A stretch of 25,498 nucleotides of DNA, taken from a virus. The position numbers and the translations under genes were made by a program. Under the pieces are notes generated by a model, which did no database searches, was not told the DNA's origin, and saw only the letters and a program-made list of their open reading frames with translations. The stretch covers positions 1-25,498 of the IMG/VR virus record IMGVR_UViG_3300034198_002782; one strand, 5' to 3'. Positions 3,716-23,840 of this stretch are shown in pieces (positions within the stretch are counted from its first letter, which is position 1; each line of letters starts with the position of its first letter).

Positions 3716-4858
3716 TTAGCAATTACAACGGCAATTTGGCGAGAAGTTACCATAGTTACCTAAGTTGTTGGCAAACTGAGAAAGATGTCCTGGCCAACCA
3801 GTTTGAGCATTATGCGCTTGGTGACCATATGAACTATTATGAGCATGCGGTGCAGTATTTGCGTGGGTTGAATTATTAGAATTATGAGCATGCGGTGCTG
3901 TTGCTGCATGCGAGGCATTATGTGCATTGGTTGCATTGGTTGCATGGGGCGATGCGCCAGCATGTCCACCGATGTTAGTAACAATAACTGCGCCAATCTG
4001 TCCTTGAACAGAACTAACAGGAACACTAACGATAACTGCACCAGTCTGTCCTTGAACAGAAGTAACTGAAGCATCAACAGTAATATTTCCAGCAACACCA
4101 GTACCATTGGTAATAGTAATACCACCACCAGCCACAATAGTTCTACCAGCAATAGTACCAGCTGCAGTTTTGACAACTATACCATATGATGATAAACCAG
4201 ATAATGATGTTAGTGTTGCATCTGCAGCCTGTACTTCAGTACCGATACGTAATTGAAGGAGTGCTGCAGCAGTACTATACGAAGCAGTTCCAGCCAAAGA
4301 TCTACCGAATGCTGTAAAGGCTGTAGTAGTAGCACTAGTTGTGCCATTAAAATAAGGAATAGTATCAGCAGCAGAAGTTGTTGCGCCCAAATTGCTTAGA
4401 CTTTGAGTCCACCCTTGTACATTGGTATTGATAACAAGACCAAGGTTACTACGAGCAGTGCTAGCATCAGTAGCACCAGTACCACCACCAGCGATTGCTA
4501 CAGTATAGTTCAAACTAGAAGCAATAGAAGCCGTACCAGTTAGAGCAGCAGTAATAGTACCAGCGGAGAAGTTACCAGAAGCATCACGAGCAACGATAGT
4601 GTTGGCAGTGTTAGCATTAGTAGCACTACGAGCACCAGAGTTAAAGGTCATGGTATCCGAGTTTAAACCACCAGCTTGACTATATCCAGTTAGCGAGTTT
4701 ACTTTGGATAGAACGTCTGCGGCAGTATAACTAGCTGCAGTAAGACCAGTCGCAAGGGCTGTATTAATGTTTGAGAAGTTGTTATCTACTTCTGTATTAG
4801 TAAGAGGACTACCTTTAGTCGATCTTAACGTAATAGATGCGGATGTTATATTTGCCAT
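3716..4858 (-). CDS. Tail fibre protein with His-rich region and Cys-x-Cys-x-Cys C-terminus
   Basis: This is a 380-residue tail fibre protein. The N-terminus (ITLRSTKGSPLTNTEVDNNF, residues 9-28) is a common opening of marine phage fibres and probably joins the baseplate. The shaft is rich in Thr, Ala, Gly and Asn, with a typical AGGGTGATDASTARSNLG segment (123-140) and two copies of SVQGQxGAVIV (about 267 and 283). Residues 299-358 hold twelve histidines, including two His-Ala-His pairs at 323/325 and 338/340 in a repeated TAPHAHNS. The protein then runs through a Gly/Asn segment to NCRCNC. C376, C378 and C380 are the only cysteines. In T4 gp37, His-x-His pairs bind iron inside the trimeric fibre tip, so this region may be a metal-containing needle. 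A radical SAM gene lies about 1.7 kb downstream, which makes a modified tip another possibility. The receptor is unknown. Confidence 0.85.
   Translation of the reverse strand: MANITSASITLRSTKGSPLTNTEVDNNFSNINTALATGLTAASYTAADVLSKVNSLTGYSQAGGLNSDTMTFNSGARSATNANTANTIVARDASGNFSAGTITAALTGTASIASSLNYTVAIAGGGTGATDASTARSNLGLVINTNVQGWTQSLSNLGATTSAADTIPYFNGTTSATTTAFTAFGRSLAGTASYSTAAALLQLRIGTEVQAADATLTSLSGLSSYGIVVKTAAGTIAGRTIVAGGGITITNGTGVAGNITVDASVTSVQGQTGAVIVSVPVSSVQGQIGAVIVTNIGGHAGASPHATNATNAHNASHAATAPHAHNSNNSTHANTAPHAHNSSYGHQAHNAQTGWPGHLSQFANNLGNYGNFSPNCRCNC
3833..3901 (-). repeat. Two 45-base-spaced repeats in the fibre tip coding TAPHAHNS
   Basis: A 24-base unit coding for TAPHAHNS occurs at 3901-3878 and again at 3856-3833, with near-identical bases in the core. 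The period of 45 bases equals 15 residues. It lies in the His-rich region of the fibre and could allow the number of His-x-His pairs to change by recombination. Confidence 0.75.
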
Positions 4859-20726: not shown

Positions 20727-23700
20727 TTATACCTTTTTCGCTTGTGGCGGTGCGCCACCATCTACTAATACAAATCCAGTAGGATATCCTTTAGCATCTC
20801 TCTGATAAACTTTATCATTTACCATAGTGAATCCCATTTTTCTATTTCCCTTAGATGTATATCCAGTATGAATCCAACATTGACCATTAAATCTATATTC
20901 TAAAATTAATTGATCATAATTAACTAATTTATCCATCTTCTGAACTAAATCATATGTTTTATTATATTTGTCTGGCAGTAGTAAAGCAATATCTACAGCT
21001 TGCCCCTTACAATGAGAAGAAGTTGGGCTTTCTTGGGCTAGAACACCTTTCAATCTATATCCTGATGTAATAGTCCATTGTTTTGTGTAGCCACCAATTC
21101 CACCTGGAAGAATACCTGCGTCAAGATATACTTCTAATACATTTGTGCACACATTTGCTAAATTACAAACAATTTCTTGTACAGTATAAACCCTATCTGG
21201 TCCTTTGTCTGTATCTTTTAATATCTGATCTACCAATTTATGATCTGGACTACAAATCAGCATACCAAGAGTAAAGTTCTTTGACAATCTATAATCTTTT
21301 GGGAAGTTAGTTGTATTATAGATTATTTTGCAATCTGCAGGAACCTGCTCATTTTTACCACCAGTTGGGGCTGCTGGTGGTTCTGTAACAACTGCTGGTG
21401 GTGGATTGGGAACTCCAGTTGTCTGCGCTTGATCATTACTAAATTTACGTCCTTCTGGAGTAGCATAATCCTCTGGGGTTTCAACTGATTGTGCTTGCTC
21501 AGTTTGACGATCAGGTGGTTGTAATGCAGGCATAATAGCATTAACTGGATTACCAGCTGGAGGAGGAGCTAAATCAAAATCAGCGACATCTTGACCACCT
21601 GACGCACCATTACCGAACTGACCTTCTGCATAATCAGCATGGAGTGTACCCCCTGCTTTAATATCCATACTAGCAGTGGATTCCAATTGAAGCGCATTTG
21701 ATTTTATACTAGCACCCTGTCCTGCTTGGAATAGTAAATTATTTGCAGATTTAGTAGTCATATTATCAGCAGCAATATGTAAACTTCCTACTGCTTTAAT
21801 TTGCATATTTCCACCGACTGCAATATCTAAATCGTTTGCTGCGCCGATAGAAAGGTTATTACCAACAGTAACAGTGGCATCTTGTTCTACTTGGATATTA
21901 GCATCGCTTCTAGCATATATGTTTGTATTACCATCAACAGTAATATTACAGTCACCACCTACATGGATGTAACCATTACGTTCCATTAGAATAAAATTCT
22001 CTCCAATTATGTAGTTTATCTGACTACCAGTTGGATCTATTTCAGTATATGTTCCTGCTCTATGATACGTATGAATACGTTCTTGTCCTGGAGTGTCATC
22101 AAATTCTTGGACATGTCCAGATTCAGTTTCCATAACTTTATTGTATGGATATTTTGCGCCATAAGCAGATAATGGTTGATCCCAAGAACCTGAATCATTG
22201 GCAGTTGGAACCCCAGATCTTCTATTAGCATCTTTCTTTTCTACAATAGTTCCCTCGAGGATACCACGAGCAAGACGATTTGTATCTGGTTCATTAATAT
22301 AATCTTTTAATGGGTACTTATTATTTGGATCTCTAAATCCAGTATTGTCTGTTCCGCTCTTTACGCTTTCAGGAGATGGTCCAGGTGTTACTGGAGCATC
22401 ATCTTTTGGTGGCGCTGGTGCTGGTGTATCTGCGCTTTTATCAACAGAACCAGTTGCTTGTGAACCATAAAAATACTCATAATATTTTAATTTACGAGCA
22501 GCAATATCTGGTGAGTTTACACCAACTGCTTTTTTTGCCGCATAGAAATATCCAGGGTGGTCAGTTTCTCGTGTTCCTTTTGGAACTCTGTCTTTAATAT
22601 AAAGAGCAGCAACTAAAGCTGATACATTAATATCATTATCAAGTGAATCAGGATTATTAATTAGATCTAAATTAAGACCCATTTTATTTGCCATATCCTG
22701 ATATTTTTTATAGTTCCCTTTACCAGTCAATTGGATAAAACCACGTCCATAATATTTACCACCATCAGCATCTGTTTGATTTCCTAAAAATCCTTTACCA
22801 CGAGTTGATGGTCCATATACCCATGAGAAAAATTGTTCTCTAGTGACACCTTTCTTTGGTGCTTCAGCATATTGTTTGGCAGTAGCATCAGTTGCAAAAG
22901 AGAATATCTGTTTTAAACGAGATTCGCTATAATTATATCCTTCTCGTTGAGGAATCCATGTAGTTTCACCACCAGCAATCGCAAGCAATGAACATTTTTG
23001 TTCTTTAGTTGTCAACCCTACTTTATCACAAGCAGCAATTAATGCTTTAATACCTTCAGATGCTTTACTTGCATTAGAAGATTCTTTTGGTGGTGGCACT
23101 GTTGGTATTGAAGTATTTGTATTTGTTTGAGCGATTGGGGCAGGGGTTGTTGGAGTAGCTTCTGGTTGTGCTGTTTTTACTGGTTGCCCTGAACCATCTA
23201 CTACAGGTTGACCAGAAGATGTTGTTACAACACCCTCAACTTTACTCTGATTTACTGCGTCTAAATTGGTCGGAGGATCTTTAAATGTTATAATGTTTTC
23301 GCCATAACCAATAACTGATTCACTAATTGTTATTTGTGTACCAGAATCTATTGTAACAATTGTACAACTATCAGATAACCCAAAACCAACAACTTTCATA
23401 TTGGCTCTAAGGGGTGTTGTTAAATTAGTGCGACCATTTTCTTCATCAACAAATGTTAATTGTTTTCCAGAAACTGGACCAACAATAGTTCTTAAAACAA
23501 TATCTTTTGTTCTATATTCTTGAATTGCGGTTGCGCTGTCATCATCTGTAATAGCAACTGGCGCAGAAGAGATTCCACCAATAGTACCAAATATCAATGG
23601 CTGTTGCATTGATTCATCAGCAAACATAATAATAACAGTAGTACCTTCAACTGGACCAACAGGAGTTGATCCAATACCATTCATTGCTGCAGAACCAATT

Positions 23701-23840
23701 GACTGGATTGGTGTTGCCCAAGGAAGCTGATCAGTTGGTAGCTGATTTTTGTCGTGGGTGTGTAATCCAACAATTCGAACTTGGCATCGACCAAGTTTTA
23801 ATGGATCTGAACGACTTTCAACTATACCAGTATAAAACAT
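20727..23840 (-). CDS. 5: gp5-type tail spike with GH19-like and M15-like peptidoglycan hydrolase domains
   Basis: This is a 1037-residue spike protein, against 575 in T4 gp5. Residues 1-95 are the gp5 OB fold (VESRSDPLKLGRCQVRIVGL; PVEGTTVIIMFADESMQQPL). Residues 262-459 form a GH19 chitinase/endolysin-like domain in the place where T4 has its lysozyme: AIAGGETTW with likely catalytic E292, NYSESRL (303-309) and YGRGFIQLTGKGNY (364-377). Residues 612-740 are the beta-helix needle of octapeptide-like repeats. After a Pro-rich linker, residues 835-1037 resemble peptidase M15 (D,D- or L,D-cleaving): SGYR (926-929), zinc ligands H943 and D950 in SSHCKGQAVDI, and ILEY...WIHTGY with likely catalytic E981 and third ligand H991. 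So both glycan strands and peptide stems may be cut during entry. Pro-rich linkers (about 220-255, 470-490, 755-830) separate the domains. The start overlaps the hub gene stop (TAATG). Confidence 0.93.
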   Translation of the reverse strand: MFYTGIVESRSDPLKLGRCQVRIVGLHTHDKNQLPTDQLPWATPIQSIGSAAMNGIGSTPVGPVEGTTVIIMFADESMQQPLIFGTIGGISSAPVAITDDDSATAIQEYRTKDIVLRTIVGPVSGKQLTFVDEENGRTNLTTPLRANMKVVGFGLSDSCTIVTIDSGTQITISESVIGYGENIITFKDPPTNLDAVNQSKVEGVVTTSSGQPVVDGSGQPVKTAQPEATPTTPAPIAQTNTNTSIPTVPPPKESSNASKASEGIKALIAACDKVGLTTKEQKCSLLAIAGGETTWIPQREGYNYSESRLKQIFSFATDATAKQYAEAPKKGVTREQFFSWVYGPSTRGKGFLGNQTDADGGKYYGRGFIQLTGKGNYKKYQDMANKMGLNLDLINNPDSLDNDINVSALVAALYIKDRVPKGTRETDHPGYFYAAKKAVGVNSPDIAARKLKYYEYFYGSQATGSVDKSADTPAPAPPKDDAPVTPGPSPESVKSGTDNTGFRDPNNKYPLKDYINEPDTNRLARGILEGTIVEKKDANRRSGVPTANDSGSWDQPLSAYGAKYPYNKVMETESGHVQEFDDTPGQERIHTYHRAGTYTEIDPTGSQINYIIGENFILMERNGYIHVGGDCNITVDGNTNIYARSDANIQVEQDATVTVGNNLSIGAANDLDIAVGGNMQIKAVGSLHIAADNMTTKSANNLLFQAGQGASIKSNALQLESTASMDIKAGGTLHADYAEGQFGNGASGGQDVADFDLAPPPAGNPVNAIMPALQPPDRQTEQAQSVETPEDYATPEGRKFSNDQAQTTGVPNPPPAVVTEPPAAPTGGKNEQVPADCKIIYNTTNFPKDYRLSKNFTLGMLICSPDHKLVDQILKDTDKGPDRVYTVQEIVCNLANVCTNVLEVYLDAGILPGGIGGYTKQWTITSGYRLKGVLAQESPTSSHCKGQAVDIALLLPDKYNKTYDLVQKMDKLVNYDQLILEYRFNGQCWIHTGYTSKGNRKMGFTMVNDKVYQRDAKGYPTGFVLVDGGAPPQAKKV

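Follow-up and report, generated by a model that had tools for sequence, protein, structure and literature searches.

The systems closest to the one described here are the thioether-forming SPASM maturases (CteB/SCIFF, PapB/freyrasin, and NxxcB), the ranthipeptide and sactipeptide systems, and the anaerobic sulfatase maturases, among them anSMEcpe, which acts on protein cysteines and whose Asp277 is the proposed catalytic base. On the side of the virion, phage fibres with a Hint, or intein-like, domain (Pfam Hom_end_hint) are autoprocessed, and iron is bound through histidines in T4 gp37 (PMC6957217). The bond in NxxcA is a beta-thioether between Cys23 and Asn20 (PMC8326336). Radical SAM genes of phages have been reported as metabolic extras or as cassettes without explanation (PMC2853527; PMC7029224).

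Here, we analyzed a complete virus record of 25,498 bases (hereafter the window), in which a tail fibre ending in alternating Cys is encoded upstream of a radical SAM/SPASM enzyme. The pair resembles the thioether maturases in the CX3CX2C core, the seven-Cys SPASM domain, and the overall fold of the enzyme, as well as in the presence of a Cys-rich putative substrate nearby, but in place of a small leader peptide the enzyme would modify the terminus of a large virion fibre. It differs likewise from the ranthipeptide and sactipeptide systems, having no small leader-bearing precursor but a fibre of 380 residues. We consider it somewhat more probable than otherwise that the receptor-binding tip is modified at its Cys tract by this phage maturase, with thioether cross-links as the most likely outcome.

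Fibre locus of the window

The window carries a T4-like baseplate and tail module, including baseplate wedge subunits, a hub with lysozyme, and tail proteins. The hub protein (20727-23840) has an endolysin-like domain (phrog_430 and phrog_181) and a second endolysin-like part at its C-terminus (phrog_894). The fibre ORF matched PHROG tail fibre and virion structural families weakly, and a similarity search of the fibre against a phage collection gave no match. Downstream of it, on the same strand, lie two partner proteins, the radical SAM enzyme, and a 96-aa protein, in that order (Table 1).

Table 1 Features of the fibre locus, with positions in the window.
Feature	Position	Strand	Remark
96-aa protein	300-590	minus	Follows the enzyme; 22 of 195 loci have a relative close to the enzyme
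Radical SAM/SPASM enzyme, 463 aa, putative fibre maturase	590-1981	minus	TTG start, ATG adjacent
Partner protein, 254 aa	2052-2816	minus	Same family as the 282-aa partner
Partner protein, 282 aa	2828-3676	minus	29% identical to the 254-aa partner (E 1e-26)
Tail fibre, 380 aa, putative substrate	3716-4858	minus	ORF; shaft common to relatives
His-rich linker, residues 299-358	3785-3964	minus	All 12 His of the fibre
LSQFANNLGNYGNF module, residues 359-372	3743-3784	minus	LGNYG-type motif, directly before the Cys tract
Terminal Cys tract NCRCNC, residues 375-380, proposed modification site	3719-3736	minus	Alternating Cys

Translation of the fibre ORF reproduced exactly the composition given in a preliminary description of this DNA, namely twelve His in residues 299-358, two copies of TAPHAHNS, and Cys (376, 378, and 380) only in the C-terminal NCRCNC. 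The His occupy positions 299, 305, 313, 317, 323, 325, 332, 338, 340, 346, 349, and 358, that is, 12 of 12 within one 60-residue stretch (hypergeometric, 9e-11). Residues 299-380 correspond to coordinates 3719-3964. The radical SAM/SPASM gene downstream of the fibre was absent from that description.

Radical SAM/SPASM enzyme and neighboring genes

The radical SAM cysteines of the enzyme (C70, C74, and C77, forming CX3CX2C) and those of its SPASM domain (C318, C337, C377, C380, C386, C390, and C402) were invariant in all 65 aligned family members. Scores against the general models were slightly under the cut-offs (29.2 versus 29.5 bits for Pfam Radical_SAM and 26.5 versus 27 bits for the NCBIfam SPASM model). 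Unlike the thioether SPASM maturases, the enzyme reached the cut-off of none of the NCBIfam maturase families (e.g., PapB, 45.7 versus 340 bits). PHROG 1802 was matched strongly, and many peptide-maturase profiles were matched weakly. A curated family assignment was dropped, since the matches were sub-threshold only.

The structure of the enzyme was predicted with a mean pLDDT of 93.7, and the model displays a radical SAM fold together with a SPASM fold. The best solved match in VIA-align 2 was CteB (Z 23.2, 364 residues, 4.0 A), followed by ChlB (20.8) and anSMEcpe (19.8), while the top match in Foldseek was anSMEcpe (1.2e-13). At the N-terminus, the model contains only a short three-strand beta element, and the VIA alignment with CteB starts at residue 1; no clear leader-binding domain was seen in the predicted structure. 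Fold similarity alone does not fix the reaction of the enzyme. Between the window and its nearest relative, L001, the enzyme gene has 103 synonymous versus 17 non-synonymous codon differences; judged by its codons, the enzyme is under purifying selection.

Of 195 loci, 140 have a member of the partner-protein family close to the enzyme; the 254-aa partner had no match in Pfam, NCBIfam, or PHROG. A 2OG-Fe(II) oxygenase-like gene occurred near the enzyme in 81 of the 195 loci, directly beside the radical SAM gene (e.g., L100:5990-6628, L017:5160-5834, and L043:7399-8004), and perhaps provides a second modification. No oxygenase-like gene was found in the window, where the partner proteins are present. 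Two further arrangements were observed. In L040 (6546-9365), two radical SAM/SPASM genes stand in tandem after a fibre ending in NCNCNCDCNCMG. In L257, from the gut bacterium Parasutterella muris, a tandem array of three Cys-rich proteins containing CxxC and CTTVNC repeats is encoded 2.4-3.2 kb upstream of a divergent radical SAM enzyme.

Association of the enzyme with the Cys tract

Three independent searches, starting from the enzyme, the motif, and the fibre, tie the enzyme to the tract in T4-like phages, siphophages, and prophages. For the enzyme-first search, 59 loci from viral contigs and 80 from bacterial genomes were sampled, and the enzyme HMM used for locus and tract counts was built on a cleaned alignment from which two Hint fibres (L035 and L048) had been removed. 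Most loci with enough sequence have, no more than about 5 kb upstream, a same-strand ORF with an alternating-Cys end such as NCNCNC, NCNCACNC, or NCNCNCDCCC. Of the 1441 same-strand ORFs located up to 5 kb upstream, 98 had such an end, near-identical loci included, versus 17 of the 6238 ORFs at all other positions and strands in these loci. The link persists in prophages (Limnohabitans, Burkholderia, Thalassobacter, Magnetospirillum, and others) to approximately 35-45% enzyme identity, and down to about a third. The exceptions are divergent enzymes outside phage contexts (e.g., Bacteriovorax MAGs), loci with short flanks, and a few other loci, e.g., L038 and L189.

For the motif-first search, viral contigs were scanned for a DNA pattern encoding NCNCNC followed by a stop, which gave at least 120 stretches. 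Among the matches listed, 94 were in-frame ORFs. In 61 of these, a same-strand enzyme gene follows at a distance of up to 6 kb, and 2 overlap the enzyme; judged by eye, 22 more are fibre-like, with no more than 1.5 kb of downstream sequence, and 9 are apparently unrelated proteins without fibre character. Several NCNCNC-ending proteins that are not fibre-like, of 202 aa (L075, L105, L124, L140, and L158) or 184-190 aa (L072, L119, and L132), had no radical SAM gene in the available flank.

The fibre-first search gathered relatives of the window fibre's shaft independently and yielded a small set. The enzyme is present in all tract-bearing shaft relatives whose flank is long enough. In L278 and L285, the shaft ends in a chaperone-like domain, which we take to be like the S74 intramolecular chaperone, and neither tract nor enzyme is present; L279 and L286 have the same type of end and no tract, with no enzyme within a flank of only 2-2.5 kb. 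L282 and L284 have, behind the fibre, a small tract protein encoded separately, and here the enzyme is present. Within this small set, enzyme and tract are, on the evidence of gene content, gained and lost together. The sequences themselves show the tract, an enzyme that is intact, and a tight link between the two in phages of diverse kinds.

Conserved and variable parts of the tip

We compared 143 distinct enzyme-linked fibre ends, among which are a few chance ORFs (e.g., GCRCRC in L021), so that the counts are approximate. The tracts contain 3-8 Cys, with strict xC alternation in 107 of the 143, and range in relatives from NCNCNC to (NC)7. Of 683 tract Cys, 487 have Asn at -1 and 419 have it at -3. 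The -3 position has the i to i+3 spacing of NxxcA, which suggests that the tract bond may be the same Cys-Asn bond. Since Asn is missing from some tract positions, the acceptor may differ between tracts, and no single fixed acceptor rule fits all of them. A universal recognition motif upstream of the tract was considered and rejected (LGNYG in 49 of 143 ends, YGxL in 33, and neither in 61). The alternating-Cys C-terminus is the conserved part of the tip.

Tip proteins of 90-170 aa occur in some relatives. In L100 (4251-5182), L083, L107, L123, L131, L149, L155, and L156, up to three of approximately 90-120 aa stand in tandem, each ending in NCNCNCNC or similar and with a LSQFTNDLGNYG module in common. 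Such proteins possibly form a heterotrimeric tip.

The fibres of Achromobacter phages JWF and 2-1, Burkholderia paludis, and several Rhodospirillaceae prophages do not stop at the tract, which is followed by CFPAGT..., where a Hint autoprocessing domain begins (Pfam Hom_end_hint, 3e-12, from residue 308 of the JWF fibre). Fibres with a Hint domain immediately behind the tract were observed in L180 (6856-8298), L181 (6844-8295), L035 (5013-6437), L048 (5099-6496), L209, L241, L243, L246, and L247. From this arrangement, we infer that Hint cleavage would occur after the tract and leave it as the mature C-terminus. These relatives resemble Hint-processed phage fibres, whereas the window fibre has no Hint domain and ends at the tract.

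The histidines followed a different pattern. The nearest relative, L001, keeps both features, with 11 His and the same C-terminal end, but in relatives whose radical SAM enzyme is 60-80% identical, the Cys tract is kept and the His are mostly not. His-rich ends were found in about 10 of 143 related tips, at two unrelated positions. The type seen in the window occurs there and in its nearest relative, and another group has a different His-rich segment, HLDTNHHFDPHHHH, before the tract, with relatives there bearing Tyr at similar places. By this comparison, the His-rich linker is a separate local variant, belonging to the variable part of the tip outside the conserved core. The window tip resembles the T4 gp37 iron needle in being a distal fibre end with His-x-His pairs, but its His are not conserved in relatives, it has no Pfam match to gp37, and its terminal Cys tract is linked to an enzyme; we know of no T4 counterpart of that enzyme.

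The interpretation in the preliminary description therefore fared unevenly. Its enzyme-made cross-link at the terminal Cys gained support, as a SPASM radical SAM gene 1.7 kb downstream tracks the tract across diverse phages, and in the comparison of related C-termini that it had proposed, the Cys end proved conserved. A His-metal needle was rejected as the main feature and found no support as a general one, since close relatives conserve the His positions poorly, an outcome that it had named as speaking against the idea. Metal binding in the window lineage is possible, by analogy with T4, as a matter separate from the Cys tract.

Proposed maturation of the tip and alternatives

The fibre and the radical SAM enzyme would form a substrate-enzyme pair. 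Before virion assembly, the maturase would act on the free, probably flexible, alternating-Cys C-terminus. Its radical core would most likely take a hydrogen from a neighboring residue, usually Asn, and link the carbon of that residue to the sulfur of a Cys bound at the auxiliary Fe-S clusters. The product, one small thioether ring or several, would cap and stiffen the tip and display to the host the variable residues that lie directly upstream. That the Cys tract is the enzyme's substrate is, given the co-occurrence, highly probable; that the chemistry is thioether formation is favored to a lesser degree, by analogy with known maturases; and a direct role of the tip in host contact is likely on similar grounds. 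A model of a mini-fibre tip (pLDDT 60) was set aside.

Several features of the enzyme would also suit oxidation of the tract Cys to formylglycine, as in anaerobic sulfatase maturases, giving an aldehyde tip that could react with host amines: anSMEcpe, which acts on protein Cys, is the closest solved fold by Foldseek, the sequence alignment spans most of anSMEcpe, and the JWF enzyme carries a sulfatase-maturase annotation. However, the position of Asp277 in anSMEcpe is Gln338 in the window enzyme and Gln in 64 of 65 members, which makes formylglycine less likely, and the tracts, including NCRCNC, have many alternating Cys instead of a CxPxR-type sulfatase signature. Once this position had been aligned, anSME-type formylglycine was ranked low, and we regard it as unlikely. 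Somewhat less doubtful is another radical SAM chemistry on the tip (epimerisation, C-C or ether links), with the tract as a docking tag or cofactor ligand. SPASM enzymes catalyze many reactions, and some tips have extra internal Cys, Asn, and Tyr, but it is the tract itself, and not the upstream part, that is common to all fibres. Given the partner proteins and the oxygenase-like genes near the enzyme, other chemistry may be involved as well.

The tract might instead bind a metal or Fe-S cluster or form inter-chain disulfides, with the enzyme acting elsewhere; nine Cys would meet in a trimer, and some tips are His-rich. We consider this very improbable, as simple sites need no dedicated radical enzyme and the enzyme comes and goes with the tract. 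Genetic hitch-hiking, by which both genes would co-travel in a variable fibre region with no direct functional link, hardly deserves credence. Fibre regions are hot spots of gene exchange, and radical SAM cassettes have been described in the host-recognition region of pelagiphages with no fibre link drawn (PMC7029224), but the association is seen in siphophage as well as T4-like tails and persists until enzyme identity has fallen to about a third, and tract and enzyme disappear together.

Implications

In a literature search with little coverage of subscription journals and preprints, no publication was found that connects radical SAM enzymes with fibre tips or mentions an NCNCNC tract. The enzyme superfamily is known, and its use on a virion receptor-binding tip is apparently new as far as the search reaches. 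The best explanation is maturation of a virion fibre in the manner of RiPPs. In our judgment, the chances are evenly balanced that these loci represent a widespread, unrecognized route of adhesin building, in which dedicated radical SAM enzymes make a multiply cross-linked, host-contacting tip from an alternating Asn-Cys tail, sometimes with 2OG-Fe(II) oxygenases and Hint autoprocessing. The pair is present in cultured phages (Achromobacter JWF and 2-1) and in several cultured prophage-bearing bacteria, which makes the proposal directly testable. If true, the enzyme would act on the end of a large folded protein, and otherwise unassigned radical SAM genes beside tail genes would be accounted for. 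In the usual view, fibre tips are brought to their final form by folding, chaperones, and metal; through a dedicated radical enzyme, host recognition would come to involve a chemical step as well, and the chemistry of ribosomal-peptide natural products would serve virus attachment.
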